A stretch of 64,000 nt of DNA, taken from contig JAJTDM010000006.1 in assembly GCA_021300575.1 (NCBI GenBank), forward strand, positions 1 through 64,000, given 5' to 3'. Position 1 is the first letter of the stretch. Each line of letters starts with the position of its first letter. Shown here in pieces: positions 13,515-30,326 of the stretch. A program made the position numbers and the translations under genes. This stretch comes from Rubrivivax sp. (GTDB lineage Bacteria; Pseudomonadota; Gammaproteobacteria; Burkholderiales; Burkholderiaceae_C). The notes below the pieces were generated by a model, which was not told the origin of the DNA, did not search any database, and saw nothing but the letters and a program-made list of their open reading frames with translations.

Positions 13515-13545
13515 AGCCGCCGTTCAAGCCGCCGTTCAAGCCGCC
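13515..13545 (-). repeat. 12-bp tandem repeat spanning the stop codon of the SDR gene
   Basis: On the minus strand the gene ends GCGGCTTGA and is followed at once by ACGGCGGCTTGA and ACGGCGGCTGG. The last four codons including TGA are thus repeated downstream in the same frame, producing a second in-frame stop 12 bases on. It looks like slippage duplication of the gene end. Confidence 0.6.
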
Positions 13546-14372
13546 GAGATGCCGCCCGTGACGCTGACGGTCTGGCCCGTGATCCGGGCCGAGGCCGGGC
13601 CGGCCAGGAAGGCGATCAGTTCGGCGACATCGTCTGCGGTGGCCACCCCGAGGCTGGCGAGCGCCTCGGCCTTGGCGAACAGGCGCTGCGAGAAGGCGTC
13701 CTGCTGCAGGCGGTCGTACAGCGGGGTACCCTGCACGATGCTCGGTGTGACGCAGTTCACGCGGACGCCGTCGCGCTTGGCCTCGATGGCCATGCCGCGA
13801 CAGAACATCGCGATGGCCGCCATGGCCGCGCCGATGACGCTCTCGCCGGGCGTGGCAATCTTGCCGGCGTCGGAGGCGACGCACACGATCGCCCCGGCGC
13901 CTTGGGCGCGCATCACCTCGTAGGCGGCCCGTGCGGGCAAGATGACGCAGGCGGCCACCTGCGCCAGCATCGGCATCACCTCGTGCGTGGCCACCTTGGC
14001 AAGCAGGCGGGGCATCACGTCGCCCCCGGCGCAACTCACCAGCGCGTCCAGGCCGCCGAAGTGGCCGGTGGCCTCCTGGACGACGGCGATGGCCTGCGGC
14101 GCGTCGGCGCCGTCGCCCCGCAGGAATCGCACGTCAAGCCCCGGATGTGCGGCGCGCAGCTCCGCCTGAGCCTTCGTGCCCCGCTCGGCGCTGCGGCCCA
14201 CCAGGGCGATCGCGCGGGTGCCTGCGGTGGCCAGGCGGTGGGCGCAGGCCAGACCGATGCCCGCAGTCCCACCCACGATCACCACCCGCTGCGGGCCTTG
14301 CGGTGGCAGCGGCATGGGCGTGCAGCCGGCCGGATGCGTTGGGTTCGGGCCTGGCCCGGGCCGGTCGTGCAT
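13536..14372 (-). CDS. SDR-fold protein lacking the catalytic Tyr and Lys
   Basis: Short-chain dehydrogenase/reductase fold, 278 residues (about 258 if it starts at the internal Met 20). The Rossmann motif is good: VVIVGGTAGIGLA (residues 30-42). The Ser of the active site is present (S167 in VASDAG), but the residue 13 positions on, where Tyr is expected, is I180, and the Lys four later is M184 (GESVIGAAM). The helix Asn also seems replaced (AQVAACV). The C-terminus ITGQTVSVTGG is typical of the family. It probably cannot act as an ordinary dehydrogenase. It is the last gene of the minus-strand carboxylase/LIV operon, overlapping the binding-protein stop by one base. Confidence 0.8.
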   Translation of the reverse strand: MHDRPGPGPNPTHPAGCTPMPLPPQGPQRVVIVGGTAGIGLACAHRLATAGTRAIALVGRSAERGTKAQAELRAAHPGLDVRFLRGDGADAPQAIAVVQEATGHFGGLDALVSCAGGDVMPRLLAKVATHEVMPMLAQVAACVILPARAAYEVMRAQGAGAIVCVASDAGKIATPGESVIGAAMAAIAMFCRGMAIEAKRDGVRVNCVTPSIVQGTPLYDRLQQDAFSQRLFAKAEALASLGVATADDVAELIAFLAGPASARITGQTVSVTGGISAA

Positions 14373-15544: not shown

Positions 15545-17430
15545 CGTGCTTTCTCCTGTGGGTCGGCAGGGCGTGCCGAGGTGCCGGCGGCATACATCTC
15601 GTCGATCAGCGCCCTGTATTTCTGACTGACGATGTTGCGCTTGAGCTTCATCGTGGGCGTCAGCTCTTCGTCGTCGGCGGTCAGGAGCACGTCGATCAAG
15701 CGAAAGCGCTTGACCTGCTCCACCGACGAAAACCGGGTGTTCACGCGTGCCAGCTCGCTGTCGATCAGCGCGACGATCTCGGGGCGGGCGCACAGCGAGC
15801 GGTAGTCCGTGAACGGGATGCCCTGTGCCTGCGCATGGTGCTCGACGTTCTCTTTGTCCAGCATGATCAGCGCCGTGAGGAAGGAGCGTCGGTCGCCAAT
15901 GACCACGCTGTCGGAGATGTAGGCGGAGTATTTGAGCTCGTTCTCGATCAGGCTGGGCGTGATGTTCTTGCCACCGGCCGTGATGATGATGTCCTTGATC
16001 CGGTCCGTGATGCGCAGGCTGCCGTCGGCGTCCAGGCGCCCGACGTCGCCAGTGTGGATCCAGCCGTCCACCACCGTCTGGGCCGTGGTCTCGGGCTGGT
16101 TCAGGTAGCCTGCGAACTGGCCGTCGGAGCGCACCAGGATCTCGCCGTTCTCGGCGATGCGCACATCCACCCCCGGCAGCGGCCGCCCCACGGTGCCCGG
16201 CTTGAACTCGCCGCGCTGCGTGATCGTGGCGATGCCGGTCTCGGTTTGCCCGTAGAGTTCGGCGATCGGCAGCCCGAGGGCCAGGTACCAACGCAACAGG
16301 CTGTCGGAGATGGGCGCGGCGCCAGAGACCATGAAGCGGGCCCGGTCCAGGCCCAGCAGCTCCTTGATGTTGCGGAACACGAAACGGTCGGCCAGGCGGA
16401 ACAGCAGGGCGTCGAGCGCCGCGGGCGCGCGACCTTCCACCAGAGCCTGCGCTCGCCGGGTGCCGACGGCCAGCGCTGCGGCGTACAGGCGCCTGCCCAG
16501 CCAGCCCGCCTCGGACATCAGCGTCACCACCCGGGAATAGGACTTCTCCCAGATGCGCGGCACGCCGAAGATCACGGTGGGCGACAACTCGCGCAGGTTC
16601 ATCGGCACGGCAGCCGGGCTCTCGGCCAGGTTGATGGTGGCGCCGGTGGCCAGCGGCAGGGTGAGCGAGAACAGGCGCTCGGCCAGGTGGCACAGGGGCA
16701 GGTAGGTGAGCAGTTCGTCGTCGGGGCCGAGGCGGAAATGCTCTGGAGCGGCTGTCATCTGGAACATCAGTGCTCTGTGCGGGATCAGCGCGCCCTTCGG
16801 GCGGCCGGTGGTGCCAGAGGTGTAGACGATGACCGCGGGATCGTCAGGCAGGCCCGCCGCGACCAGTGACTCGATGGCTCCGCCCTCATGGGCCCAGATC
16901 GCCTCCCCGCTGTCGTACAGCGCCTCGATGGGGTGGACCAACGGATCAGTGAAGCCGCGCAGTCCCTTGCGGTCGAAATAGTAGACGGCCAGGATCCCAG
17001 GCAGTTCGTCGCGCACCTCGAGGTACTTGTCGAGCTGCTCCTCGTTCTCGACGAAAAGCACCCGCGCCCGACAGTCCTCCAGGCAGAAGCGCACCTGGGG
17101 CGGTTGCGAGGTGGGGTAGATGCCGCAGACCACGCCGCCCGCCAGCATGGCGCCCATGTCGGCCCAGATCCACTCCTTGCAGTCCTCGCCCAGGATGGCG
17201 ACGGCATCGCCGCGCTGAAGCCCGAGCGCGCGCAGGCCGTAGGCGATCTGCATGGCGCGGGCATGGAAGTGGCGCCAGGAGTAGCTTTGCCACACGCCCA
17301 TATCCTTCTCGCGCAGGGCGATGCGCTCGCCGCGCTCGAGTGCCTTCTTGAGGAAGAGCTTGGGTGTGGTGTCGCAGCCGTCGATCCGATGGATCATCAA
17401 CTCGCGGTGGTCAGGGCGCAGGGTCGGCAT
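15541..17430 (-). CDS. AMP-forming acyl-CoA synthetase (long-chain FadD15-like type)
   Basis: Activates a carboxylic acid to its CoA thioester with ATP. The 629-residue protein shows the adenylation P-loop YTSGTTGRPKGALIPH, the YGQTETG motif (A5), WIHTGDVGRLDADG (A7), the hinge RIKDIIITAGGKNITP (A8), and a C-terminal Lys context LTPTMKLKRN. The GGKNITPSLIEN form and extended C-terminus place it with long-chain/FACS enzymes. It is embedded in a LIV-type transporter operon, an arrangement in which the transporter brings in the acid that the ligase activates. Real substrate undetermined: branched or cyclic acids fit the neighbours. Confidence 0.88.
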   Translation of the reverse strand: MPTLRPDHRELMIHRIDGCDTTPKLFLKKALERGERIALREKDMGVWQSYSWRHFHARAMQIAYGLRALGLQRGDAVAILGEDCKEWIWADMGAMLAGGVVCGIYPTSQPPQVRFCLEDCRARVLFVENEEQLDKYLEVRDELPGILAVYYFDRKGLRGFTDPLVHPIEALYDSGEAIWAHEGGAIESLVAAGLPDDPAVIVYTSGTTGRPKGALIPHRALMFQMTAAPEHFRLGPDDELLTYLPLCHLAERLFSLTLPLATGATINLAESPAAVPMNLRELSPTVIFGVPRIWEKSYSRVVTLMSEAGWLGRRLYAAALAVGTRRAQALVEGRAPAALDALLFRLADRFVFRNIKELLGLDRARFMVSGAAPISDSLLRWYLALGLPIAELYGQTETGIATITQRGEFKPGTVGRPLPGVDVRIAENGEILVRSDGQFAGYLNQPETTAQTVVDGWIHTGDVGRLDADGSLRITDRIKDIIITAGGKNITPSLIENELKYSAYISDSVVIGDRRSFLTALIMLDKENVEHHAQAQGIPFTDYRSLCARPEIVALIDSELARVNTRFSSVEQVKRFRLIDVLLTADDEELTPTMKLKRNIVSQKYRALIDEMYAAGTSARPADPQEKAR

Positions 17431-17439
17431 GGGCAGTCC

Positions 17440-18213
17440 TCAGCGCCAGGTCTTGCGCTTCTTCCAGCGCCTGGTGCCCCTGACGCCGGCGGCCTTGTGG
17501 CCCAGATAGAACTCGCGGATGTCATCGCTGCGCGCGAGGTCGGCTGACGGACCGTCCATCACCACCCCGCCAACCTCCATCACGTAGGCCCGGTTCGAGG
17601 TTTCCAGTGCGACAACGGCGTTCTGCTCGACCAGCAGCACGGTGATGCCGCGCTCCTGATTCAGGCGGCGGATGATCTCGAAGATCAAGGTCACCAGCAC
17701 CGGCGACAGGCCCAGGCTGGGCTCGTCAAGCAGCATCAGGCGGGGGCGCGACATGCAGCCGCGCCCAATGGCCAGCATCTGCTGCTGACCGCCCGACAGG
17801 TACCCGGCCAGCTTGCCCATGCTGTCCTTCAACGCAGGAAAGTAGCCGCAGACAGCCTCCAGGTCGTCGGCGATGCCCTGCGCATCGCGGCGTCGGTAGG
17901 CGCCCAGCAACAGGTTCTCGCGCACGGTCAGGAAGGGAAACACCTCGCGCCCTTCAGGCACATGCGCCACGCCCTGCGCGGCCACCCAGTCGGGGTCGCG
18001 GTTCTGAACCGCCCGGCCCTCCAGCAGGATCTCGCCCTTGCGGCAGTTCAGGGCCCCGGAGATAGTCTTGAGCAGGGTGGTCTTGCCGGCACCGTTGGCG
18101 CCCAGCACGGCGACGATCTCGCCCGGGCTGACCTTCAGGCTCACCCCGCGAATGGCCATGATCGGGCCGTAGTAGGTCTCGAGGTTGTTCACCTCCAGCA
18201 GCGGCGCACTCAT
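17440..18213 (-). CDS. livF: LIV-type ABC importer ATPase, LivF family
   Basis: One of two ATPases of the HAAT-family importer, 257 residues. Walker A GANGAGKTT, signature LSGGQQQMLAIG, Walker B LMLLDEPSLGLSP and the switch His in VLLVEQN are all present. GRAVQNRDPDWVAAQGVAHVPEGREVFPFLTV is the LivF hallmark. A basic tail (TRRWKKRKTWR) extends past the usual end. ATG overlaps the livG stop by four bases. Confidence 0.9.
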   Translation of the reverse strand: MSAPLLEVNNLETYYGPIMAIRGVSLKVSPGEIVAVLGANGAGKTTLLKTISGALNCRKGEILLEGRAVQNRDPDWVAAQGVAHVPEGREVFPFLTVRENLLLGAYRRRDAQGIADDLEAVCGYFPALKDSMGKLAGYLSGGQQQMLAIGRGCMSRPRLMLLDEPSLGLSPVLVTLIFEIIRRLNQERGITVLLVEQNAVVALETSNRAYVMEVGGVVMDGPSADLARSDDIREFYLGHKAAGVRGTRRWKKRKTWR

Positions 18214-18974
18214 GGCGCGCTCCCCAGGTAGGCCGTCTGCACCTCCTTGTTGGCGCGCACCTCCTGGGGCGTGCCCAGGGCCAGTGTGCGGCCGTTGTGC
18301 AGCGCCAGCACCCGGTCGGCCATCCGGTTCACCAGGCCCATGTCGTGTTCCACCATCACCATCGTGACGCCAAGTTCGGCCCGGATGTCGTCAAGCCAAA
18401 ACCCGAGGTCATCGGTCTCCTCGGGGTTCAGGCCCGAGGCCGGCTCGTCCAGCAGCAACAGCGTGGGTTCTGCACACAGGGCCCGGGCGATCTCGACGTT
18501 CTTGCGCGCCCCATACGGCAGATCCCGGATGAGCTCGTAGCGCAGGGCCTCGAGTTCCAGCAGGTCAATGATGCGCTCCACGGCCAGGCGCTGGCGGTGT
18601 TCGTCCTCTCGCACGCTGCGCGGGAAGACCATCTCGCGCAGCAGGTTGCGCCGGGTCAGGCGGTGGCGACCCACCAGCAGGTTGTCCAGGACCGAGGCGT
18701 TCTCGAAGAGCTCGATGTTCTGGAAGGTTCGGGCGATGCCGAGCGCGGCCAGTTGATGGGTCTCGTAGCGGCCCAGGTCGTCATCGCCGTAGCTGATCCG
18801 ACCCTGGCTGGGTTGGTAGAGGCGGCTCACGAGATTGAAGATGGTGGACTTGCCCGCGCCGTTCGGGCCGATGATCGCGAAGATCTCGCCTGGCTCGACC
18901 GTGAACGTCACGCCGTCCAGAGCGCTCACCCCGCCAAAGCGGATAGCCAGGTTTTCCACCTGCAGGCGCTTCAT
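18210..18974 (-). CDS. livG: LIV-type ABC importer ATPase, LivG family
   Basis: Second ATPase of the importer, 254 residues. Walker A GPNGAGKST, the LivG-specific IARTFQNIELFENASVLDNLLVGRH stretch, a modified signature (LPYGARKNVEIARAL, as usual in LivG) and Walker B LLLLDEPASGLNPEE are seen. Overlaps livF and livM by four bases each, implying a tightly coupled operon. Confidence 0.9.
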   Translation of the reverse strand: MKRLQVENLAIRFGGVSALDGVTFTVEPGEIFAIIGPNGAGKSTIFNLVSRLYQPSQGRISYGDDDLGRYETHQLAALGIARTFQNIELFENASVLDNLLVGRHRLTRRNLLREMVFPRSVREDEHRQRLAVERIIDLLELEALRYELIRDLPYGARKNVEIARALCAEPTLLLLDEPASGLNPEETDDLGFWLDDIRAELGVTMVMVEHDMGLVNRMADRVLALHNGRTLALGTPQEVRANKEVQTAYLGSAP

Positions 18975-20047
18975 CGCATGCGCTCCGTCTTCAGGTAACG
19001 CTTCTGCCGTACCAGCGAGTCGGCGCGGAAGTAGGGGAAGGTCTCGATCAGGCGCCGCAACTTGGCCCAGCGCCCGGCCAGCCCGGCGGGCTCGAACAGG
19101 ATGAAGAGGACGATGATCAGACCGAAGACCAGGGGCTCAAGCCCGGGCTGGTCGGCGATCGACGGCGGCAGGAAGTTGCGGACCTCACGGATCAGCAGCG
19201 GCAGCACCATGACGAAGGCTGCGCCCAGAATGGGCCCGAGCAGCGTACCCAGGCCGCCCACGACGATCATCAGCAACAGGCGCAGAGACTCCTTGACCTC
19301 GAAGGACTCGGGCGACAGGTACTGAAGGTGATTGGCCATCAGCGCCCCCGCCAGGCCGGTCAGCCCCGCGCTCAGCGCGAAAGCCTGGATCTTCGTCGAG
19401 GCGACGTGAACACCCAGGCAGCGCGCCGACAACTCCGAGTCGCGCACCGAGATGAACGCCCGGCCTGTGGGCGAGCGCAGCACGTTGGCGCTGGCCAGCA
19501 GCACCAGGCCGAAGCACAGCAGGTCGATGCCGTAGCGCGCGACGCTGCCGGAGAAGTCCAGGCCGAAGATCTTCACCGCAGGCACCTGCATGCCGGCATG
19601 GCCTCCGGTCACATGCTCCCACTGTCCCGCCAGCGTTTCGAACAGCACCGAGAAGACCAAGGTGGCAATGGCCAGGTAGAAGCCATGCATGCGCGAGGCC
19701 GAGCGGCCCAGCGCCGCCCCGACGGCGGCCGACAGGAGCACTGCGGCTGGCAGCGCGACAAGGAACGGCACGCCCTTGGTCATCAGGACCGACGAGGTGT
19801 AGGCGCCAATGCCCAGGAACGCTGCGTGGCCGAAGCTAACCTGTCCGGTGAACCCGGTCAGCAGCATCAGGCCGATGCCGGCGATCGCGTAGACCAGCAG
19901 CAGGCTGAGTTGGTTCAGCAAGAAGGAGTTCAGCAGCAGCGGTGCCAGCAGCAGGCCGGCGGCCGCGATCGCCACGCGCCACTTCTCGCCCCGGAAGGGC
20001 AGGTGGTCGATGTCCGGGTCGTAGGAGGTCTTGAACAGTACCTGCAT
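18971..20047 (-). CDS. livM: LIV-type ABC importer permease, LivM family
   Basis: Inner-membrane permease, about 358 residues from ATG 20047 (MQVLFKTSYDPDIDHLPF). The LivM core ALGLMLL-type segment (YAIAGIGLMLLTGFTGQVSFGHAAFLGIG) and the ATPase-contact region RDSELSARCLGVHVASTKIQAFALSAG are clear. The track start at 20068 would overlap the livH end; 20047 leaves a four-base gap. A C-terminal extension (PYFRADSLVRQKRYLKTERMR) follows the last helix. Confidence 0.88.
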   Translation of the reverse strand: MQVLFKTSYDPDIDHLPFRGEKWRVAIAAAGLLLAPLLLNSFLLNQLSLLLVYAIAGIGLMLLTGFTGQVSFGHAAFLGIGAYTSSVLMTKGVPFLVALPAAVLLSAAVGAALGRSASRMHGFYLAIATLVFSVLFETLAGQWEHVTGGHAGMQVPAVKIFGLDFSGSVARYGIDLLCFGLVLLASANVLRSPTGRAFISVRDSELSARCLGVHVASTKIQAFALSAGLTGLAGALMANHLQYLSPESFEVKESLRLLLMIVVGGLGTLLGPILGAAFVMVLPLLIREVRNFLPPSIADQPGLEPLVFGLIIVLFILFEPAGLAGRWAKLRRLIETFPYFRADSLVRQKRYLKTERMR

Positions 20048-20051
20048 GGTG

Positions 20052-20918
20052 TCAGACCTTCTTGGCAAACGTCTGGGCGATCAGGCCTTCGGGCCGGACG
20101 AACAGCACCGCCAGCATGACGATGTACGCCGACACGCCTTTCAGCGAGGGCAGGTACAGGTCGGCAAAGGGCTCGAGCACGCCGATCAGCAGGCAGCCCA
20201 ACAGTGCGCCCGGGATGGATCCGAAGCCCCCGACGATCGCGCCTGCCAGCGCCTTCAGACCGAAGGCGCCCAAGTGCGTGTCGACCTGAGTGAAGGGCGC
20301 GTTGAAGATGCCGGCCGCCGCAGCCACGGCCGCGCCCAGCGCCCACACGACAGATACCAGCGTCTTCACCGGGATGCTCATGTAGTAGGCGGCGAGCTGG
20401 TTCTGACTGGCGGCCTGCATGGCGATGCCGACCCGGCTGCGCGAGAAGAACAGGTACAGCCCGAGGCACAGCAGGGCGGTGCCGGCGATGATGGCGATGC
20501 GGTCGTGCCGCACAGCCAGGCCGCCGATCTGCAGGCTGCCGCCGAAGTGGTTCGGGAACGGGATCGCATCCCAGCCCCAGGCCATGCCTGCCAGCGAGCG
20601 GAAGATGAATCCGAAGGCCACGGTCAGGATGAACACGCTGGCCTGGCTCTCTCCAATGATGCGCCGCATCACCAGCGCGTCGAGCAGAAAGCCCACGACC
20701 GCCATCGCCAGGATGGCGCAGGCGATGCCCATCCAGAAGCCGAACAGACCGATCAACGGCAACGCAGCGAAGGCGCCGAGCATCATGAACTCCCCATGCG
20801 AGAAGTTGACGATCTCCGTGGCCTTGTAGATCAGGACGAAACCGAGAGCGACCAGCCCGTAGGCGCATCCCTGGCTGATGCCGATCAGCAGCAGATTGGT
20901 GAGGTCCTGGGCTGACAC
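20052..20918 (-). CDS. livH: LIV-type ABC importer permease, LivH family
   Basis: Partner permease, 288 residues, beginning MSAQDLTNLLLIGISQGCAYGLVALGFVLIYKATEIVNFSHGEF, the textbook LivH N-terminus. The ATPase-contact loop reads VGIAMQAASQNQLAAYYMSIPVKTL, with AIVGGFGSIPGALLG near the end. First gene of the LIV block, separated from the carboxyltransferase gene by about 90 bases holding a hairpin. Confidence 0.9.
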   Translation of the reverse strand: MSAQDLTNLLLIGISQGCAYGLVALGFVLIYKATEIVNFSHGEFMMLGAFAALPLIGLFGFWMGIACAILAMAVVGFLLDALVMRRIIGESQASVFILTVAFGFIFRSLAGMAWGWDAIPFPNHFGGSLQIGGLAVRHDRIAIIAGTALLCLGLYLFFSRSRVGIAMQAASQNQLAAYYMSIPVKTLVSVVWALGAAVAAAAGIFNAPFTQVDTHLGAFGLKALAGAIVGGFGSIPGALLGCLLIGVLEPFADLYLPSLKGVSAYIVMLAVLFVRPEGLIAQTFAKKV

Positions 20919-21007: not shown

Positions 21008-22615
21008 TCACAGCCGGAACACCCCGTAACCCGGTTCGCCCAACGGCGCGTTCAGCGACGCCGTGATGGCCATGCCCAGGGCACTGCGCGTGTCCACGGG
21101 GTCCAGCAGCCCGTCGTCCCACAGGCGCGACGTGGCGAAGTAGGCGGACACCTGGTGCTCGTAGCCGCGGCGTGTCTCTTCGCGCACCCGCTCCAGTACC
21201 GCGGGATCGACGGCCTCACCATTGCGGCGCAACTGGCGCGTCTTGACATCGACCAGTGTGTTGACTGCCTGCTCGCCGCCCATCGTGGCGATCTGGTAAG
21301 TCGGCCAGCCGAACAGGAAGCGCGCATCGAAGGCCCGGCCGCACATGCCGTAGTTGCCGGCACCGAAGGACGCGTTGCACATGACCGTGAACTTCGGTAC
21401 CCGCGAACAGCTCTGCGCCATGATCATCTTGGCGCCGTCCTTGGTGATGCCGTTGCGCTCGTAGTCGCGCCCGACCATGAAACCTGTGATGTTCTGCAGG
21501 AACACCAGCGGCGTCTCGTTCTGGTTGCACAGCTCGATGAAGTGGGCCGCCTTGAGCGAGGAGTCATTGAACAGCACCCCGTTGTTGGCCACGATGCCGA
21601 CTTTCCAGCCCAGAAGGTTGGCGTAGCCGCAGACCAGGGCAGTACCGTAGCGGGGCTGGTATTCGTGGAAGCGGCTGCCATCGACCATGCGTGCGATCAC
21701 CTCGCGCATGTCGAAGATGGCCTTCGGGTTCTCGGGGATGATGCCGTACAGCTCCTGCGGGTCGTAGTACGGTGCCTCGATCGCCTCGCGCTGGCAGTTC
21801 CAGCGCGGCTGGCGGCGCCACTGAGCGACGATCTCACGGCCGATCGTCAGGGCCTCCTCCTCGCTGTCGGCTGCGTAGTCGCACGTGCCCGAGACGGCGG
21901 TGTGCATGTCTGCGCCGCCCAGTTCCTCGAAGCCGACGTCCTCGCCGGTGGCTGCCTTCACCAGGGGCGGGCCACCGAGGAAGACCGCGCCGATGCCGCG
22001 CACGATCACCGAGTAGTCCGACAGCGCCGGCACGTAGGCGCCCCCCGCGGTGCAGTGCCCGAACACCAGGGCGAGCTGCTGCACGCCCATCTTCGAGAGC
22101 TGGCATTGGTTGCGGAAGATCCGGCCGGCCATGTGGCGGTCCGCGAAGAGGTCGGACTGCTGCTGCAGGAAGCCGCCCGCGCTGTCGCACAGGTGCACTA
22201 CGGGCAGCCGGTTCTCGATGGCGATGTCCAGCAGGCGCACGATCTTCTTGATCGTCAGCGGATACCAGGCGCCGCCCTTGACCGAGCTGTCGTCGGCGTG
22301 GATCGCCACCTCGCGCCCCGACACGATGCCGATGCCGGTGATCGCGCTGGCTCCCGGGCTCTCGCCGTCGTAGTCCATGTTGGCGGCCAGGGTCGACAAC
22401 TCGAGGAACGGCGTGCCGGGGTCGAGCAGGCGCTCGACCCGCTCGCGAGGCAGCATCTTGCCGTGCTGGCGCAGGCGGTCGATGTCGCGCTGAGGCCGCT
22501 GGTGGCGCGCCGCATCCTGACGCTGGTGCAGTTCTGCCACCACGCGGCGGTAGTGGGCGTCGTTGCGCCGGAATCCAGCGTCGCTTGTCGAGAGGGTGGA
22601 GGCGATCCTGCGCAT
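21008..22615 (-). CDS. Acyl-CoA carboxylase carboxyltransferase (beta) subunit, methylcrotonyl/geranyl-CoA type
   Basis: Transfers CO2 from carboxybiotin to an alpha,beta-unsaturated acyl-CoA. Length 535 is normal for MccB/AtuC. Seen: KMLPRERVERLLDPGTPFLELSTLAA near the N-terminus, SGREVAIHADDSSVKGGAWYP, FGHCTAGGAYVPALSDYSV in the acyl-CoA-binding half, EELGGADMHTAVSGTCDY, and the C-terminal CT domain ITGFMVGRDYERNGI...ASFGAGNYGMCGRAFDARF. The DSSVKGG variant and FLFGWP segment match the methylcrotonyl/geranyl group, not propionyl- or acetyl-CoA carboxylase. Its partners follow: a separate biotin carrier and a separate biotin carboxylase. Confidence 0.88.
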   Translation of the reverse strand: MRRIASTLSTSDAGFRRNDAHYRRVVAELHQRQDAARHQRPQRDIDRLRQHGKMLPRERVERLLDPGTPFLELSTLAANMDYDGESPGASAITGIGIVSGREVAIHADDSSVKGGAWYPLTIKKIVRLLDIAIENRLPVVHLCDSAGGFLQQQSDLFADRHMAGRIFRNQCQLSKMGVQQLALVFGHCTAGGAYVPALSDYSVIVRGIGAVFLGGPPLVKAATGEDVGFEELGGADMHTAVSGTCDYAADSEEEALTIGREIVAQWRRQPRWNCQREAIEAPYYDPQELYGIIPENPKAIFDMREVIARMVDGSRFHEYQPRYGTALVCGYANLLGWKVGIVANNGVLFNDSSLKAAHFIELCNQNETPLVFLQNITGFMVGRDYERNGITKDGAKMIMAQSCSRVPKFTVMCNASFGAGNYGMCGRAFDARFLFGWPTYQIATMGGEQAVNTLVDVKTRQLRRNGEAVDPAVLERVREETRRGYEHQVSAYFATSRLWDDGLLDPVDTRSALGMAITASLNAPLGEPGYGVFRL

Positions 22616-22617
22616 GT

Positions 22618-23118
22618 TCAGCTTCCGGCCTCGGGTTCGAGCACGACCAGTGTGGCCCCTTTGTCGAAGGTCTGGTCGACGGCGACCAGTACCCGGGCGA
22701 TCCGCCCGGCACGCGGCGCTGCCAGGTTCATCTGCAACTTCATGCTCTCGATGGTCAGCACGGTCTCGCCGGCGGCCACTTCCTCGCCTGCCGCCTTCAG
22801 CAACTGCAGCAATGTGCCGGGCATCTCCGCCACGATCTCGTCGCTGTCCGCGCCGCGGCTGCGCGTCTGGTCACGCGGGTCGGCTATGTCGACGCGGAAG
22901 CTGCGTCCGCCGTGGCGCAGATGTACCAGCGGGCCGTCGCTGGCGGCGTGGAAACCCATCGTGCGGCCATCGATCGTCAAGGATCTGGCCGGCCCGGCCT
23001 CTGCGCCCGGCGCGTCCAGGACATGGAGCCTGCCATCCAGGCGCACGACGAGCTGCGGATGCCGGGCGACGATCTCAAGCGCATGCTCCCGTCCGTCCAG
23101 GCGCAAGGTGATCGCCAT
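22618..23118 (-). CDS. Stand-alone biotin carboxyl carrier protein of the acyl-CoA carboxylase
   Basis: Carries biotin between the biotin carboxylase and carboxyltransferase. From ATG 23118 the protein is 166 residues: an N-terminal beta-rich part (MAITLRLDGREHALEIV) resembling the BT domain of MccA, then a biotinyl domain (IVAEMPGTLLQLLKAAGEEVAAGETVLTIESMKLQ) with the acceptor Lys in ESMK instead of the commoner EAMK. In most methylcrotonyl-CoA carboxylases these parts are fused to biotin carboxylase; here they are a separate gene one base after it. The track start 23265 is rejected because it lies inside the carboxylase gene and lacks family text. Confidence 0.88.
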   Translation of the reverse strand: MAITLRLDGREHALEIVARHPQLVVRLDGRLHVLDAPGAEAGPARSLTIDGRTMGFHAASDGPLVHLRHGGRSFRVDIADPRDQTRSRGADSDEIVAEMPGTLLQLLKAAGEEVAAGETVLTIESMKLQMNLAAPRAGRIARVLVAVDQTFDKGATLVVLEPEAGS

Positions 23119-23119
23119 C

Positions 23120-24598
23120 TCAGTTTCTCCAGCCGCCGAGCTGCGCATAAGGCTCGGCCACGTCGTCGATGAGCCGGCGAAGCGGCGGGCTTGCCATCGC
23201 GGCTGCCAGCAGGACCGCACTGCGCTCCTCGTCCGCCAGCGTCGGAGTCCGAAGCTCCGAGCCATGTTCGGCCAGGAAACCGGTATGCAGCCGGCCCGAG
23301 ACGAACGCAGGATGTGTCATGACCCTGCCCAGCAAGTCGAGGTTGGTGCCCACGCCCAGGATGGCGGTGTCATGCAGCGCCTGCGACATGCGCTCGATGG
23401 CCTCCTGGCGCGAGGCGCCGGCTACGATCAGCTTGGCCAGCATCGGGTCGAAGCTGGTGCCGACGGTCTGCCCGTCCATCAGGCCGCTGTCGAACTGAGC
23501 CCAGCTCTGGTGGGGCGCTACCGCACGCAACACGCGGCCTGTCTCGGGCATGAAGTTGCGCTCGGGGTCCTCGGCGCAGATCCGGCACTCGATGGCATGT
23601 CCCGACAGCACGATCGAGTCTTGCTCGGGAAGCGCCTGGCCTGCCGCCAGGGCCAGCTGAAGGGCCACCAGATCGAGGTGGCAGACCCGCTCGGTGACAC
23701 GGTGCTCGACCTGCAGCCGTGTGTTCATCTCCAGGAAGTAGAACTGGCCGTCAGGGGCGACGATGAACTCGACGGTTCCGACGTTGGTGTAATGGGCAGC
23801 GCTGGCCAGTTTGACCGCGGCCTCGATGATGGATTGGCGCAGGTCCTCGGCCAGACCGACCGCGGGTGCCTCCTCGATGACCTTCTGAAAGCGCCGCTGG
23901 ATCGAGCATTCGCGCTCACCCAGGTGGATGACCCGCCCGCGGCCGTCGCCCACGACCTGGACCTCGATATGCCGGGGGCGCTCGATGAAGCGCTCGGCGT
24001 AGATGCGGCTGTCACCGAAGTAGCGCTGCGCCTCGCTGGCCGCCAGCGCGGCGCTTGCAGCCAGTTCTGCGGGCGTTCGGGCGATGCTCATGCCCTTGCC
24101 GCCTCCGCCGGCTGCGGCCTTGATGAGCAGGGGGAAGCCGATCGCCCCAGCCGCGGCGACGAATTGCGTCAGGTCTTGTGTGGGCGTCACAGAGGGCGAC
24201 ACCGGCACGCCGTGCCTCACCGCGAAGCCACGAGCCTCGATCTTGTCGCCCATCAGGCGGATGGTGTCGGCGCGCGGTCCGACGAAGGTCAGGCCTGCGG
24301 CCTGCACGTCGGCGGCAAAACCCGCGTTCTCGGACAGGAAGCCGTAGCCGGGGTGCACGGCGTCGCAGCCCGTGCGCTGCGCCACCGCCATCAGCTGGCT
24401 CCGGTCCAGGTGCGCAGCCACCGGGGTCTCGCCATCGATGAGCTCGGCGGCGTCGGCCATCGTGACATGCCGGGCACGGTGGTCCAGGCGGTGGTGTACT
24501 GCAACGGTCTGGATGCCCAGCCTGCGCGCCGACTCGATGATGCGGCACGCGATCTCGCCCCGGTTGGCTATGAGCAGGCGGCGCAGGGAATGGCTCAT
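23120..24598 (-). CDS. Biotin carboxylase subunit (alpha) of acyl-CoA carboxylase, no fused carrier domain
   Basis: ATP-dependent carboxylation of biotin. The 492-residue protein from ATG 24598 has the biotin-carboxylase order: LLIANRGEIACRIIESARRLGI, HPGYGFLSENAGFA, the glycine-rich lid LLIKAAAGGGGKGMSI, RHIEVQVVGDGRGRVIHLGERECSIQRRFQKVIEEAP, and FLEMNTRLQVEHRVTE. It stops after the C-terminal carboxylase domain, without the BT/BCCP portion found in fused MccA (about 660 residues). The track start at 24718 lies inside the TetR gene. Confidence 0.9.
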   Translation of the reverse strand: MSHSLRRLLIANRGEIACRIIESARRLGIQTVAVHHRLDHRARHVTMADAAELIDGETPVAAHLDRSQLMAVAQRTGCDAVHPGYGFLSENAGFAADVQAAGLTFVGPRADTIRLMGDKIEARGFAVRHGVPVSPSVTPTQDLTQFVAAAGAIGFPLLIKAAAGGGGKGMSIARTPAELAASAALAASEAQRYFGDSRIYAERFIERPRHIEVQVVGDGRGRVIHLGERECSIQRRFQKVIEEAPAVGLAEDLRQSIIEAAVKLASAAHYTNVGTVEFIVAPDGQFYFLEMNTRLQVEHRVTERVCHLDLVALQLALAAGQALPEQDSIVLSGHAIECRICAEDPERNFMPETGRVLRAVAPHQSWAQFDSGLMDGQTVGTSFDPMLAKLIVAGASRQEAIERMSQALHDTAILGVGTNLDLLGRVMTHPAFVSGRLHTGFLAEHGSELRTPTLADEERSAVLLAAAMASPPLRRLIDDVAEPYAQLGGWRN

Positions 24599-24608
24599 GG
24601 GTGCTGCC

Positions 24609-25313
24609 TCAAGCCGGTCTCGGCCCGAGGGCCCCTTCCAGGCGAGCGGCCACCCGCTCGAGGCGCTCGACAGTCTGGGCGATGGACGCCGACCCCGCCC
24701 CGGGCGGCTGCAGGCCATCGAAAACCAGCCGGGTCAGCGCGTTGGAAAGTGCATCGCAGTCGAGCGAGCCCCGGCCGGCAAGAAATGCGGCGACATGGTG
24801 CTCAATGCCGCCGAAGACGAGATCGCGTACCAGGCGCACAGGGATGTCCAGCCGCAGCATCCCGGCAGCGATGCCTTTCTCGATTTCGGCAGTCAGCAGT
24901 CCGGTGGCCTCTCGGTTCAGGGCGTGCAGCTCACTGCCGACGTAGTCGGGCCGGCTGCGGACTTCAGCGTAGAACAGCCGGCACAGGTCGGACGCGTCAC
25001 GGATGGTCTTCAGGTGCTGCCAGATCAGCAATTGCACGCGGGCGCGCACTCCCTGGACCCCTGCGATCTTCTCGCGGTTCTCCTTGATCATGTCCAGGTA
25101 CCACTCCCGGATCACGCACAGCAGCAGGTGACGCTTGCTCTCGAAGTAGCGGTAGATGGCCGCTTCGGACACGCCCACGAGGGCGGCGATCTCGGCCATC
25201 GACGCGGACTCGTAGTCCTTCTGCGAGAACACCGAGCGTGCGGCCGACAGGATGTCGTCAATCCTCTCCTGTCGAGGCCGATGGGCGGCACGGCGGCCGG
25301 TCTGTGCGCTCAA
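24609..25313 (-). CDS. TetR-family transcriptional regulator, first gene of the carboxylase/LIV operon
   Basis: DNA-binding repressor, 234 residues, probably responding to an acyl-CoA. HTH is clear at RIDDILSAARSVFSQKDYESASMAEIAALVGVSEAAIYRYFESKRHLLL; the rest is the ligand domain, with LIWQHLKTIRDASDLCRLFYAEVR similar to fatty-acid-type TetR regulators. It is promoter-proximal on the minus arm and divergent from the dehydrogenase operon, so it may control both arms through the region 25314-25576. Confidence 0.85.
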   Translation of the reverse strand: MSAQTGRRAAHRPRQERIDDILSAARSVFSQKDYESASMAEIAALVGVSEAAIYRYFESKRHLLLCVIREWYLDMIKENREKIAGVQGVRARVQLLIWQHLKTIRDASDLCRLFYAEVRSRPDYVGSELHALNREATGLLTAEIEKGIAAGMLRLDIPVRLVRDLVFGGIEHHVAAFLAGRGSLDCDALSNALTRLVFDGLQPPGAGSASIAQTVERLERVAARLEGALGPRPA

Positions 25314-25383
25314 GGCGAAGGGTTCCTTGCGGGGAGGGGGGTAGCAGGGTCAGACGGGCTGATGACGACCCTTCAGGCAGATA

Positions 25384-25398
25384 GTGAATCAAACTCAC
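25384..25398. promoter_or_regulatory. Candidate TetR operator 1 (GTGA-N7-TCAC)
   Basis: GTGAATCAAACTCAC has perfect GTGA/TCAC half-sites with seven-base spacing, lying 71 bases upstream of the tetR start. A second copy of the same architecture lies at 25476. Assignment to the adjacent TetR protein is inferred from position. Confidence 0.4.
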
Positions 25399-25441
25399 AA
25401 CTGATGTCAACTGGGGTTGCGTTGATCTCGTCTCTTACCGG

Positions 25442-25447
25442 TATAAC
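25442..25447 (+). promoter_or_regulatory. Possible -10 element of the dehydrogenase operon
   Basis: TATAAC, in an A/T-rich island of otherwise GC-rich DNA, is preceded by TTGCGT (19-base spacing) or TTGATC (14-base spacing); neither spacing is ideal. It falls between the two GTGA-N7-TCAC motifs, as expected for a regulated promoter. Confidence 0.3.
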
Positions 25448-25475
25448 CACTGATGCGGTTTACCCTATGGACAAT

Positions 25476-25490
25476 GTGAGTACAGATCAC
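25476..25490. promoter_or_regulatory. Candidate TetR operator 2 (GTGA-N7-TCAC)
   Basis: GTGAGTACAGATCAC repeats the architecture of the motif at 25384, 87 bases before the dehydrogenase start and downstream of the TATAAC element, where a bound repressor would block the plus-strand operon. Confidence 0.4.
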
Positions 25491-25576
25491 TTAACGTCCT
25501 CCGCGCTGGGATACATGCCTGCCGAAACACGTCGATGACGGCTCCGCGCACGGCGGCCCGGCCAGGAGGATCACGC

Positions 25577-26824
25577 ATGCATCACGACCACGTCCCCGAC
25601 ATCCCCGTGCGCAACCCCTACGGTTTCGATGCCGAGCAGCAGCGTGTCTTCGAAGCCGCAGACGCCTTCGCCCGCCGCGAGCTGTACCCGTTGGCTACCC
25701 GCATGGATGCGGAGGAATGGTGGCCGCCAGAAGCCTTCGGCAAGATCGCCGAGGCAGGCTTCTTCGGCATCACCGTGGCCGAGGAGGACGGCGGCCTGGG
25801 GTTGGACCTCGTGTCGGCCGGGGCCGTGGTCCAGGCCTTCGGGCGCTGGAACCATGCGCTGGCGCTGTCCTACCTGGTGCACGACAACATCGTCCTCGAC
25901 AACCTGTACCGCAACACCAACGCGGAGCAACGCAGGCGCTATTTGCCGGACATGATTGCCGGGCGCGCGATCGGGGCGCTGGGCCTGACCGAGCCGGGTG
26001 CCGGCTCGGATGCGATGGGCTCCATGCGGACCACAGCGCGCCGCGAGGGCGACCATTACCTGCTCAATGGCACCAAGATCTACATCACCAACGGCCCGGT
26101 GGCCGACGTGCTGCTGGTCTACGCCAAGACCAGCCCCGAGCGCGGCGCCAAGGGCATCTCGGCCTTCATCGTCGAGAAGGGCTTCGAGGGCTTCAAGGTG
26201 GCGCAAAAGCTCACCAAGATGGGCTACCGGGGCAGCCCCACGGCTGAACTCGTGTTCCAGGACTGCCGCGTACCGGCGCAGAACCTGGTGGGCGAGGAAG
26301 ATGGCGGCGTCAAAGTGGTGATGGGAGGCCTGGACATCGAACGCGCGATGATCGCCCCGCTGTGCTTGGGCGTGGCCGAGCGGGCCCATGAGCTCTCTGT
26401 CGAGTACGCCTGCATGCGCCAGCAGTTTGGCCAACCGATCGGCTCCTTCCAGATGATCCAGTCCATGATCGCCGACATGTACGTCGAGATCGAGACGATG
26501 CGTACCTTTACGTACCGGACCTTGGCCGAGTGCACTCGCTGGCCCGGCGCAGGCGGGCGTGGCGAATTACACAAGCTGACTGCGGCGTGCGCCTTGTTTG
26601 CCGCTGAAGCCTGCCACCGCGTGCTCGACCACGCGATCCAGATCCATGGCGGCTCGGGTTACATCTGGGACTCCGAGATCAACCGGCTGTATCGCTCGAT
26701 CAAGCTGCTCGAGATCGGCGCCGGTACCACCCAGGTGCGCAAGATGATCATCGCCGGCGAGTTGCTGGCGGGTCTGGAGACCCGCGGCCGTCAACCCGGC
26801 ACCCCTGCTTCTTCTCAAAGGTGA
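25577..26824 (+). CDS. Acyl-CoA dehydrogenase, isovaleryl-CoA-dehydrogenase-like active site
   Basis: FAD enzyme oxidising a (branched) acyl-CoA to the 2-enoyl-CoA. From ATG 25577, chosen for the CAGGAGGA ribosome site six bases upstream, it is 415 residues. Family blocks: LTEPGAGSDAMG, NGTKIYITNG, FGQPIGSFQMIQ and IHGGSGYIWDSEINRLYRSIKLLEI. At the position where medium/short-chain enzymes have the catalytic Glu (YEGT) it reads EIGAGTTQVRK, with Ala. A Glu is instead present in GGLDIERAM (about residue 255), the arrangement of isovaleryl-CoA and long-chain dehydrogenases. Citronellyl-CoA dehydrogenase (AtuD type) is an alternative. First gene of the plus arm. Confidence 0.9.
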   Translation: MHHDHVPDIPVRNPYGFDAEQQRVFEAADAFARRELYPLATRMDAEEWWPPEAFGKIAEAGFFGITVAEEDGGLGLDLVSAGAVVQAFGRWNHALALSYLVHDNIVLDNLYRNTNAEQRRRYLPDMIAGRAIGALGLTEPGAGSDAMGSMRTTARREGDHYLLNGTKIYITNGPVADVLLVYAKTSPERGAKGISAFIVEKGFEGFKVAQKLTKMGYRGSPTAELVFQDCRVPAQNLVGEEDGGVKVVMGGLDIERAMIAPLCLGVAERAHELSVEYACMRQQFGQPIGSFQMIQSMIADMYVEIETMRTFTYRTLAECTRWPGAGGRGELHKLTAACALFAAEACHRVLDHAIQIHGGSGYIWDSEINRLYRSIKLLEIGAGTTQVRKMIIAGELLAGLETRGRQPGTPASSQR

Positions 26825-26829
26825 AAACG

Positions 26830-27285
26830 ATGGCTGCTCTGTGGTTCGAGGAATTCAAGCCCGGTCTGGTGATCGAGCACGCGCCCCGGCGTACCGTGAC
26901 CGAGGCCGACAACATGTGGTTCTGCAACGCCACGCTCAACCCCCAGCCGCTGCACATCGACTTCCATGCCGCAGCCAAGTCCGAATTCGGCCGCCCCATC
27001 GTCAACAGCATCTTCACGCTGGGCCTGATGATTGGCATGGGGGTGCAGGAGACCACGCTGGGTACCACCGTGGGCAACCTGGGCATGACCGACGTGCTGT
27101 TTCCGCGCCCGGTGTTCCATGGGGACACGATCCATGCGCGCACCACCGTGATCGAGGCCCGGGAGAGCAAGTCCCGCCCGACCAACGGTATCGTGACGTT
27201 GCTCCATGAGGCATTCAACCAGGACGATCTGCTCGTGGCCAGTTGCAAGCGCACGGCTCTGATGCACAGGCGGCCCGTGGCATGA
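26830..27285 (+). CDS. MaoC-family hydratase/dehydratase
   Basis: Hot-dog-fold (R)-type enoyl-CoA hydratase relative, 151 residues. WFEEFKPGLVIEHAPRRTVTEADNMWF and LNPQPLHIDFHAAAKSEFGRPIVNS form the conserved Asp/His region, and HGDTIHARTTVIEARESKSRPTNGIVT is the second half. It resembles the single-domain MaoC proteins annotated near mesaconyl-CoA and related metabolism. ATG 26830 (AAAGG upstream) is preferred to the GTG at 26821 inside the previous stop. Here it could hydrate the carboxylated enoyl-CoA; no crotonase is present in the cluster. Confidence 0.85.
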   Translation: MAALWFEEFKPGLVIEHAPRRTVTEADNMWFCNATLNPQPLHIDFHAAAKSEFGRPIVNSIFTLGLMIGMGVQETTLGTTVGNLGMTDVLFPRPVFHGDTIHARTTVIEARESKSRPTNGIVTLLHEAFNQDDLLVASCKRTALMHRRPVA

Positions 27286-28142
27286 GCGTCGCGCCGCTGC
27301 GCTCCATCCTGTTCGTGCCGGGTGACAGCCCGCGAAAAATCGAACGCGGAGCCGAATCCGCGGCAGATGCGCTCATCCTCGACCTCGAGGACTCGGTGCA
27401 CCCGGATGCCAAGGCGCAGGCGCGCCTGGTAGTGGCCGACGCGTTGAAGTCCCCCAGCCGCCTCCGTCGCATCGTGCGTGTCAACGCCCTGGACTCAGGC
27501 CATTTCGAGCAAGACCTGCAGGCGCTGGCGGCTGACCCGCCCGAAGCCGTGGTGTTGCCCAAGTGCGCGTCGTGGCACGACATCGAGGCCGCTTCCAAGC
27601 AGCTGGACGCGGTCGGCCTGCCCATCGATCGGGTGCGCCTGCTTCCCGTGGCCACCGAGACGGCGCGCGCCCTGCGCAACCTGATGCGCAGTGATTGGTC
27701 GCATCCGCGCCTGCTGGGGCTGACCTGGGGCGCGGAGGATATTGCGGCCGATCTGGGCGCGCTGACCAACCGCGAAGACGGCGTCTACACAGGGGTCTTC
27801 TGCCTCGCACGCGACGTTTGCCTGCTGGCAGCGCGCGAGGCCGGGGTGCTCGCGCTGGACACCGCCTTCATCGATGTGCGCGACGTCCAGGGCTGCGAGC
27901 TGGAAGCGCAGCGCGCGTTCCGCGCCGGGTTCGACGGCAAGCTTGCCATCCACCCAGCCCAGATCGACCCCATCAACCGGGCCTTCACGCCCTCGGCCGA
28001 GCAGATAGACTGGGCTCACCGGGTGCTCGAGGCCCTGGACCGCAGCGGCGAAGGCGTGGCATCGCTCGATGGACGCATGATCGACATGCCGCATCAGCGC
28101 AGTGCCATGAAGATCCTGCGCTCGGTCGGGGCCCGGGCCTGA
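27282..28142 (+). CDS. CitE-like CoA-ester lyase (HpcH/HpaI aldolase family)
   Basis: TIM-barrel lyase that splits beta-hydroxyacyl-CoA compounds (citryl-, malyl-, citramalyl-CoA types). From ATG 27282, overlapping maoC by four bases, it has 286 residues. Seen: RSILFVPGDSPRKIERG, LILDLEDSVHPDAK, LLPVATETARAL, GLTWGAEDIAADLGA (metal-ligand Glu/Asp context) and KLAIHPAQIDPINRAF. All are CitE landmarks at normal length. It lies between the hydratase and acetoacetyl-CoA synthetase, which suggests cleavage of an HMG-CoA-like intermediate (see findings). Malyl- or citramalyl-CoA lyase activity is the conventional alternative. Confidence 0.87.
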   Translation: MSVAPLRSILFVPGDSPRKIERGAESAADALILDLEDSVHPDAKAQARLVVADALKSPSRLRRIVRVNALDSGHFEQDLQALAADPPEAVVLPKCASWHDIEAASKQLDAVGLPIDRVRLLPVATETARALRNLMRSDWSHPRLLGLTWGAEDIAADLGALTNREDGVYTGVFCLARDVCLLAAREAGVLALDTAFIDVRDVQGCELEAQRAFRAGFDGKLAIHPAQIDPINRAFTPSAEQIDWAHRVLEALDRSGEGVASLDGRMIDMPHQRSAMKILRSVGARA

Positions 28143-28151
28143 TCGGACGTC

Positions 28152-30326
28152 ATGGACCTGCCTGTACCCCGCATCACCCTCTACCAGCAATGGCTGGAAC
28201 GCGAGCGCGGCCTGCGCTTTGCGGACTACGACGCGATGTGGGCCTGGTCGGTCACCGACCTTGACGCCTTCTGGCAGTCGATCTGGGTCTACTTTGCGGT
28301 GCAGTCGCCCACACCGCACACGGCGGTGCTGGCGGACGACCGCATGCCCGGGGCGCGGTGGTTTCCGGGGGCGCAGCTGAACTTTGCGCAGCAGGTGTTC
28401 CGCCATGCCGAGGCGGCGCATGCGGCGGGGCACCCGGCCATCGTGTCCACGGACGAGGCCGGCCTGGTGCGTGGCGAGTGTGTGGAGCTGTCCTGGCCTG
28501 AGTTGCAGCAGCAGACCGCACGCTTTGCGGCGGCGCTGCGCACCCTGGGCGTGCGCCGCGGTGACCGCGTCTGCGCCGTGCTGCCCAACACGCCGCAGAC
28601 GGCGGCAGTGTTCCTGGCCGTGGCGAGCCTGGGCGCGGTGTGGAGCGTCTGCTCGCCCGACATGGGGCCGGTGGCGGTGCTGGACCGCTTTCGCCAGATC
28701 GAGCCTACCGTGCTGGTGGCCTGCGACGAGGTGCGCTGGGCCGGCGTGCTGCACGACAAGCGTGCCCTCGTGGACGAGCTGCTGGCGGGGCTGCCCAGCG
28801 TGCGGCATGCGGTGCGGGGTGTGGATGTGCGGGCGGTGCTCCACGGAGAGGTGCCTTCGGATGCGGCGCTGGCCGGTGCGCTGGCCCATGCACCCGGGCC
28901 TGTCCCGGCGTCAGGGGCGCAGCCGACACTCCAGCCCTCGCTCCAGCCCACGCTCCAACCCGAGTGGCTGCCCTTCGATCACCCGCTGTGGATCGTCTAT
29001 TCCAGCGGCACCACCGGCCTGCCCAAGCCCATCGTGCACGGGCATGGTGGCGTGGTGCTTGAAGCGCTGAAGAGTTCGCTGCTGAACAACCTGGGGCCTA
29101 CGGTGGAGACGGGCGACCGCTTCCACTGGTTCAGCACCACGGGCTGGATCATGTGGAACTGCCAGATGGCCGGGTTGCTGGGCGGCACCACCATTTGCCT
29201 CTTCGATGGCAGCCCGGGCGGGCCCTCGGCCGCGCCCGACTGGACCACGCTGTGGCGCTTTGCCGCGCTGTCGCGCGCCACCTTCTTTGGCGCGGGTGCG
29301 GCCTTCTATGCCAGTTGCCTGAAGGCCGATGTGCAGCCGGCCATCACGGCCGACCTGACGGCGCTGCGCGCCGTGGGCTCCACCGGCTCGCCCTTGTCCG
29401 ACGAGTGCCACGACTGGATCTGGGAACGTCTGCCGCGGGTAGGCGGGCAGCCGATCTGGATCGACTGCATCTCCGGCGGCACGGACTTCGCCGGCGCGTT
29501 TGTGGGCGGCAACATCACGCTGCCGCAGGTGCGTGGGCAGATGCAGTGCCGCTGGCTGGGCGCGGCCGTGCAGGCCTGGGACGAGCAGGGCGCCAGCGTC
29601 ATCGACCAGGTGGGCGAGCTGGTGTGCGCGCGGCCCATCCCGTCCATGCCGCTGCGTTTCTGGAACGACGAGGGCGACCGCCGATACCGTGACAGCTACT
29701 TCGACATGTACCCGGGCGTGTGGCGGCATGGGGACTGGATCCGCATCACCCCCCGAACCGCAAGTGACATGGTTGAAGCGCCGGCCCAAGCGGCCGCTGG
29801 AGCTGCAGGCCTCTCGCCAGCGACAAGTACCTCAGGCCCTGAGGCCCTGCGCATCATCCCCAGCCCTTTCGGCCCCACCCCCGTGGCCCACGGCGCCATC
29901 ATCTACGGCCGCAGCGACGCCACCATCAACCGCCAGGGCGTGCGCATGGGCACCGCCGAGCTCTACCGCGTGGTGGAGGCGCTGCCCGAGGTGCTGGACA
30001 GCCTGGTGGTGGACCTGGAATACCTGGGCCGCGAGAGCTTCATGCCGCTGTTCATCGTGCTGCGTGACGGCCTGGTGCTGGACGCGGCACTGAACGCGCG
30101 CATCCACAGTGCCATCCGCCAGGGCCTGGGCCCGCGTTATGTGCCCAGCCAGACTCTGCAGGTGCAGGCTATCCCCCGCACCTTGTCGGGCAAGAAGATG
30201 GAACTGCCGGTCAAGAAACTGCTGCTGGGCGCGGACCCGGCCAAGGTGATGAACCGCGACGCCATGGCCAACGCCGCGGCGGTGGACTGGTTCATCGATT
30301 ACGCCCGGCGGCGCGGGGCCGGCTGA
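28152..30326 (+). CDS. Acetoacetyl-CoA synthetase (acetoacetate-CoA ligase) with two insertions
   Basis: ANL-superfamily ligase activating acetoacetate. N-terminal FWQSIWVYFAVQSP and ARWFPGAQLNFAQQV are typical of AacS, followed by IVYSSGTTGLPKPIVHGHGG (A3), the AacS-specific STTGWIMWNCQMAGLLGGTT and CISGGTDFAGAF, then RHGDWIRIT (A7), YGRSDATINRQGVRMGTAE (A8) and LSGKKMELPVKKLLLG with the C-terminal Lys. At 724 residues it exceeds the usual ~650. Extra material is a TLQPSLQPTLQP-type repeat before the P-loop and an Ala/Ser/Pro-rich stretch of about 40 residues after the A7 motif. Nine bases separate it from the lyase gene; last gene of the plus arm. Confidence 0.88.
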   Translation: MDLPVPRITLYQQWLERERGLRFADYDAMWAWSVTDLDAFWQSIWVYFAVQSPTPHTAVLADDRMPGARWFPGAQLNFAQQVFRHAEAAHAAGHPAIVSTDEAGLVRGECVELSWPELQQQTARFAAALRTLGVRRGDRVCAVLPNTPQTAAVFLAVASLGAVWSVCSPDMGPVAVLDRFRQIEPTVLVACDEVRWAGVLHDKRALVDELLAGLPSVRHAVRGVDVRAVLHGEVPSDAALAGALAHAPGPVPASGAQPTLQPSLQPTLQPEWLPFDHPLWIVYSSGTTGLPKPIVHGHGGVVLEALKSSLLNNLGPTVETGDRFHWFSTTGWIMWNCQMAGLLGGTTICLFDGSPGGPSAAPDWTTLWRFAALSRATFFGAGAAFYASCLKADVQPAITADLTALRAVGSTGSPLSDECHDWIWERLPRVGGQPIWIDCISGGTDFAGAFVGGNITLPQVRGQMQCRWLGAAVQAWDEQGASVIDQVGELVCARPIPSMPLRFWNDEGDRRYRDSYFDMYPGVWRHGDWIRITPRTASDMVEAPAQAAAGAAGLSPATSTSGPEALRIIPSPFGPTPVAHGAIIYGRSDATINRQGVRMGTAELYRVVEALPEVLDSLVVDLEYLGRESFMPLFIVLRDGLVLDAALNARIHSAIRQGLGPRYVPSQTLQVQAIPRTLSGKKMELPVKKLLLGADPAKVMNRDAMANAAAVDWFIDYARRRGAG
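28927..28962 (+). repeat. Three imperfect 12-bp tandem repeats inside the acetoacetyl-CoA synthetase gene
   Basis: Units ACACTCCAGCCC, TCGCTCCAGCCC and ACGCTCCAACCC encode TLQP-SLQP-TLQP. The in-frame repeat falls in a linker just ahead of the adenylation P-loop and accounts for part of the extra length of the protein. Confidence 0.65.

Follow-up and report, generated by a model that had tools for sequence, protein, structure and literature searches.

A stretch of 64,000 nucleotides from Rubrivivax sp. (GenBank assembly GCA_021300575.1, contig JAJTDM010000006.1, positions 1 to 64,000; hereafter the window) contains a gene cassette built around a biotin-dependent acyl-CoA carboxylase. The cassette is composed of two divergent arms. 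The plus-strand arm encodes an acyl-CoA dehydrogenase (ACAD) of the isovaleryl-CoA dehydrogenase (IVD) type, a MaoC hydratase, a CitE-like lyase, and a ligase of the acetoacetyl-CoA synthetase (AACS) type, with 4-bp overlaps at the ACAD–MaoC and MaoC–lyase junctions. The minus-strand arm encodes a TetR regulator, biotin carboxylase (BC), biotin carboxyl carrier protein (BCCP), and carboxyltransferase (CT), and goes on past CT without large gaps through LivH-M-G-F, an acyl-CoA ligase, a binding protein, and a short-chain dehydrogenase/reductase (SDR).

Gene identities were assigned by Pfam and NCBIfam profile searches of the window proteins, which bear out all the gene calls of an initial annotation of positions 21008–30326 (IVD-like ACAD, biotin carboxylase, MaoC, CitE-like lyase, and AACS). 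That region left out LivH-M-G-F, the acyl-CoA ligase, the binding protein, and the SDR, which extend to position 13536. The initial annotation was also right that crotonase and 3-hydroxy-3-methylglutaryl-CoA (HMG-CoA) lyase are missing here: no crotonase was found within positions 10000–40000 of the window, and no HMGL-like (DRE-TIM HMG-CoA lyase) gene on its contig. AtuA and the crotonase AtuE are both absent from the cluster.

Table 1 Features of the carboxylase cassette and BKACE genes at related loci.
Feature	Position	Strand	Remarks
SDR oxidoreductase	13536..14372	-	PF00106/PF13561; last gene of the minus-strand run; overlaps the LivK frame
LivK-type periplasmic binding protein	14372..15520	-	PF13458 at frame residues 415-762; start approximate, open frame to 16693
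Acyl-CoA ligase, AMP-forming, FadD11-like	15541..17430	-	PF00501, 244.5 bits; proposed entry ligase
LivF-type ATPase, ABC importer	17440..18213	-	81% identity to Oceanibacterium counterpart
LivG-type ATPase	18210..18974	-	76% identity to Oceanibacterium counterpart
LivM-type permease	18971..20068	-	
LivH-type permease	20052..20918	-	PF02653
CT	21008..22615	-	PF01039, 441 bits; clade apart from MCC and GCC; Ala163 at MCC Phe191 position
BCCP (BT-BCCP), separate gene	about 22618..23118	-	PF00364 biotin_lipoyl
BC	23120..24598	-	PF00289, PF02786, PF02785; start MSHSLRR; longer frame from 24718
TetR-type regulator, between the two arms	24609..25313	-	PF00440, 2e-16
Possible operator GTGAGTACAGATCAC	25476..25490	+	Between TetR and dehydrogenase genes; low confidence
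IVD-type ACAD	25535..26824	+	Best PDB match IVD 4o5m, 336 bits
MaoC-family hydratase, RipB/Ich-like	26821..27285	+	PF01575; best NCBIfam model NF038241
CitE-like beta-hydroxyacyl-CoA lyase, Rv2498c/RipC-like	27282..28142	+	PF03328; best NCBIfam model NF038242
AACS-type ligase with insertions	28152..30326	+	TIGR01217, 668.9 bits vs cut-off 520.9
BKACE beside carboxylase/lyase cassette, relatives	L053:10898-11833; L067:8563-9522; L071:5497-6657; L076:15547-16476		

The carboxylase and its pocket residue

The BC gene ends in TGA and the BCCP gene starts two bases later. BC and BCCP are also separate genes in every relative where both are visible, indicating that the split is natural; a frameshift between them is therefore rejected.

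In methylcrotonyl-CoA carboxylase (MCC), Phe191 blocks larger substrates, geranyl-CoA carboxylase (GCC) has Gly162, and swapping the residue shifts the substrate preference (PMC4673880). The position can be mapped exactly, as RQDEVFPDREHFGRIF flanks Phe157/Phe191 in Mycobacterium tuberculosis AccD1 and MCC. The window CT lacks the pocket Phe of MCC (human numbering) and carries Ala. It does not match GCC either, having Ala rather than Gly and the MCC loop length, with no gap, before the pocket position.

In the tree, the window CT falls into a clade of 23 distinct members with a support of 100/100, apart from the MCC branch and from GCC. The pocket residue is Ala in 21 of these members and Gly in two; it is Phe in all 31 other MCC-type copies. 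MCC of Pseudomonas aeruginosa, AccD1 of M. tuberculosis, and a second CT of the host, on contig C6, share the other branch, with weak support (91/70). The GCC branch is separate from the window clade; the joining of the two in the tree may reflect long-branch attraction and is not relied on. Judged by sequence, the window carboxylase is neither MCC nor GCC and sits on a branch of its own that is poorly described.

The host assembly, 97.7% complete, contains further copies of the pathway enzymes. A true IVD with 73% identity to PDB 4o5m is encoded at C6:38295-39437, and the same contig also holds MCC alpha, the Phe-type CT, a crotonase, and an HMG-CoA lyase (449 bits; cut-off 246). A GCC, with PDB 5ikl as its best PDB match (645 bits), lies on contig C121 with AtuA nearby. 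A Phe-type MCC is also present in 14 of the 15 other sampled genomes that carry the window clade. The initial annotation had tentatively read the locus as a leucine/isovalerate pathway and had named two things that would jointly count against this, a complete canonical liu set elsewhere in the genome and normal growth of mutants on leucine and isovalerate; the C6 genes supply the first of these. Leucine is an unlikely substrate because IVD, MCC, crotonase, and HMG-CoA lyase are encoded elsewhere in the genome, because the window carboxylase lies outside the MCC clade with Ala for the pocket Phe, and because leucine breakdown would require neither the importer nor the acyl-CoA ligase of the operon. 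The earlier assignment is therefore probably wrong in its substrate.

Dehydrogenase, hydratase, lyase, and exit ligase

The window ACAD contains the IVD-type base (GLDIER) and an IGAGT motif; as in IVD, its LDxER helix bears the catalytic Glu, and Gly-Ala leaves space for the branch. A 3-methyl branch in its predicted substrate is well supported. When compared with the IVD pocket residues (PMC12369846), Leu127 is kept (assigned by eye in the motif GLSYGAH), Leu290 is replaced by Ile, and Tyr403 (human precursor numbering) by Leu. The signal from these residues is mixed, and the ACAD was dropped as a marker of substrate size.

Among curated models, the hydratase matches RipB best and the lyase RipC, both from itaconate degradation, and both scores are far below the cut-offs (140.9 of 340 bits for NF038241; 192 of 375 bits for NF038242). 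The hydratase carries the motif NPQPLH, in which Asn (N-x4-H) takes the place of the usual hydratase Asp; this Asn is kept across the relatives.

The lyase is 38% identical to M. tuberculosis Rv2498c across 275 amino acids and retains its Mg ligands Glu112 and Asp138, Arg64, and the WGAED carboxylate loop. Rv2498c is a lyase of (R)-HMG-CoA (kcat/Km 3.9 x 10^5) and of (S)-citramalyl-CoA, and M. tuberculosis in which it is deleted does not grow on leucine (PMC6689899). The neighboring AccA1–AccD1 is an MCC, and the operon is under a TetR repressor (PMC4347857). The suggestion in the initial annotation that CitE-type cleavage parallels that of HMG-CoA lyase fits the chemistry; assigning a CitE-like lyase and MaoC to the HMG-CoA steps is the right idea, and the chemistry is already published for M. 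tuberculosis (PMC6689899). The substitution of lyase Met133 by Thr recurs in most relatives, even where there is no carboxylase, and is not diagnostic of substrate size. Among WGAED-type lyases, Val181 is replaced by Ala in just three, those of the window, Oceanibacterium, and Sneathiella.

The AACS scores above the cut-off of the acetoacetate-CoA ligase model and is 48% identical to a second, standard AACS of the genome on contig C148. It has low-complexity insertions relative to the family model, namely PTLQPSLQPTLQP and a stretch at about residues 537-580. No BKACE was found anywhere in the host genome, and AACS occupies the corresponding slot in the window. A BKACE of the 3,5-dioxohexanoate type is present in four of the seven lyase-type loci (Table 1), above the curated cut-off in the three scanned loci L053, L067, and L076 and by homology only in L071. 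From a beta-keto acid, BKACE transfers an acetyl unit onto acetyl-CoA, yielding acyl-CoA and acetoacetate; on acetoacetate itself the reaction would be futile. Therefore, the lyase product in those relatives is argued to be larger than acetoacetate.

Distribution and possible exchange of the lyase module

The nearest cassettes are found in Alphaproteobacteria. TetR-BC-BCCP-CT and ACAD-MaoC-lyase are kept together with the importer in Oceanibacterium hippocampi (identities: CT 85%, lyase 70%, TetR 57%) and a Sneathiella metagenome-assembled genome (CT 77%, lyase 58%, TetR 51%). Plasmid pTM1 of Tistrella mobilis, from a plasmid search used for annotated context only, carries the cassette, its genes rearranged, along with importer and ligase. 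When genomes were sampled evenly across the host's phylum, the window CT clade was present in only one other genome; within the class of that genome, which includes the alphaproteobacterium T. mobilis and not the host, it is present in 15 of 385. None of 36 same-genus genomes has a lyase more than 46% identical. Horizontal acquisition of the cassette is likely.

To compare modules, the stretch around each of 23 loci of the CT clade was surveyed. MaoC and the CitE-like lyase are present in the window and at loci L053, L063, L067, L071, and L143; at L076 (Croceicoccus) the lyase is present and MaoC was not detected in the stretch surveyed. AtuA with crotonase is present at L127, L144, and L146, and AtuA lies at the edge of the stretch at L130 and L131. 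Thus seven loci have the lyase and five have AtuA, never both, and 11 of the 23 show neither in the stretch surveyed. AtuA is the tentative 3-hydroxy-3-isohexenylglutaryl-CoA lyase of the Atu pathway (PMC4847356). Therefore, AtuA and the MaoC–lyase pair look like alternatives. Wherever AtuA (DUF1446) accompanies the clade, the CitE-like lyase is missing, and the two may be functionally equivalent. As proof of equivalence this exclusivity was set aside, since it would arise by chance in about 13% of cases.

Proposed route and alternatives

From the gene identities and their order, the catalytic residues, the distinct CT clade, and the synteny, we infer the reactions and the size of the side group R given here. 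With a probability of roughly 55%, the locus is a two-arm, Atu-like catabolic cassette for an imported beta-methyl-branched carboxylic acid, in which R is probably larger than methyl and the acid, therefore, probably larger than isovalerate. The Liv-type ABC importer would bring the acid into the cell and the FadD11-like ligase would form its CoA ester. The IVD-type dehydrogenase would act at C2-C3 to give R-C(CH3)=CH-CO-CoA, the gamma-methyl group of which would be carboxylated by BC, BCCP, and CT. MaoC would hydrate the product to 3-hydroxy-3-R-glutaryl-CoA, the lyase would split this into acetyl-CoA and a beta-keto acid, and the AACS-type ligase would activate the beta-keto acid for thiolysis. 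TetR is predicted to control both arms.

Several observations weigh against this route. GCC, which is also open at the pocket, carboxylates 3-methylcrotonyl-CoA in spite of its Gly (PMC4673880), and the Ala enzyme may do likewise; C5 acids are thus among the possible substrates. At the IVD pocket, the ACAD retains the closing Leu127 and only Leu290 is changed, to Ile. Thr at lyase position 133 is family-wide, AACS suits acetoacetate, the C5 product, and the window itself has neither BKACE nor AtuA. Finally, chance might explain why AtuA and the lyase do not overlap (P about 0.13).

Of the known systems, the Liu pathway (LiuABCDE) shares the IVD-type dehydrogenase and an MCC-class gamma-carboxylase, whereas the window cluster has no crotonase or DRE-TIM HMG-CoA lyase, its pocket Phe is replaced, and the Liu enzymes of the host are on C6. 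The best surviving alternative, which we nevertheless consider unlikely, is that isovalerate or 3-methylcrotonate, whether or not leucine as well, is degraded by a second route of the (R)-HMG-CoA type like that of M. tuberculosis, AACS taking the place of SCOT. The M. tuberculosis leucine cluster Rv2498c–Rv2506 (citE, accA1, accD1, scoAB, and bkaR) resembles the window in its TetR, its biotin carboxylase set, and a CitE-like lyase whose catalytic residues are the same. We take MaoC and fadE19 to be members of that cluster as well, and its AccA1 is presumably a fusion of BC and BCCP. The gene types thus agree, and Rv2498c both cleaves (R)-HMG-CoA and is needed on leucine; however, the two lyases are only 38% identical. 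AccA1–AccD1 is an MCC of the Phe type and AccD1 falls with MCC in the tree, whereas the window CT does not and has Ala for Phe191, although GCC-type pockets accept 3-methylcrotonyl-CoA. The importer and ligase would fit external isovalerate, but the M. tuberculosis operon has neither a Liv importer nor a FadD11-like ligase. AACS adjoins the lyase in the window, where M. tuberculosis has SCOT; the genome, however, has a separate IVD, MCC, crotonase, HMG-CoA lyase, and AACS, and relatives carry BKACE.

It is improbable that the locus is simply an operon for acyclic terpenes (citronellate/geranate), an Atu system in which MaoC and the CitE-like lyase stand in for AtuE and AtuA. The steps of the Pseudomonas Atu pathway (AtuA-H and AtuR) have counterparts here in the SDR, the ligase, a dehydrogenase of the citronellyl-CoA type, the gamma-carboxylase, the hydratase, the lyase, and TetR (PMC4847356), and members of the window CT clade carry AtuA. 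The window, however, has an importer and AACS in addition, its CT has Ala rather than Gly, the MCC loop length, and a place outside the GCC branch, and the genome already encodes the GCC and AtuA on C121. Least probable is that the MaoC–lyase pair works in the breakdown of itaconate or a different C5 dicarboxylate (Rip or Ich-Ccl type) and lies beside the carboxylase incidentally: the RipB and RipC models, the bifunctional Rv2498c, and MaoC–lyase pairs in Burkholderiales with no carboxylase nearby speak for it, but the Rip scores are low, a carboxylase and a dehydrogenase are present, ACAD, MaoC, and lyase overlap and keep their order in Oceanibacterium and Sneathiella, MaoC, lyase, BC, BCCP, and CT are adjacent in Tistrella, and no gene of the cassette was recognized as an itaconate CoA-transferase.

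The branched-acid route can be extended to the whole clade, at odds that we put a little short of even: in addition to Liu and Atu there may be a third pathway with gamma-carboxylation, marked by the Ala/Gly CT clade, that imports and degrades a beta-methyl-branched acid and in which the hydratase–lyase step (MaoC and CitE-like lyase, or crotonase and AtuA) and the exit (AACS or BKACE) are exchangeable. If true, this would also support AtuA as a true C-C lyase, and the clade offers a genetic way into that proposed role. What makes the locus interesting is its distinct carboxylase clade together with the exchangeable modules. A carboxylase of the MCC class is readily annotated as a leucine enzyme, and Rv2498c-like lyases should not be taken for leucine enzymes by default. 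With its opened pocket, a dedicated importer and ligase, and interchangeable lyase modules, the clade gives a handle on a branched-acid route undescribed in the literature searched.

The motif GTGAGTACAGATCAC is exact in the window, has one mismatch in Sneathiella, and is weak elsewhere; it is a weak operator motif and a candidate only. The entry ligase has NF038343 as its best model, with a score below the cut-off, and its homologues adjoin the transporter at L063, L128, L130-L132, and L143. SDRs recur beside the window-type carboxylase in relatives, and the window SDR is only distantly similar to them. At L124-L126, a clade CT and BCCP stand next to an EAL/cNMP-binding gene and to PPK2 and DUF2125 genes, with neither BC nor a dehydrogenase adjoining them. 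Downstream of the cassette, positions 30809-40000 encode a GntR regulator, an M20 peptidase, an amidase, and further ABC transporter genes, apparently unrelated.

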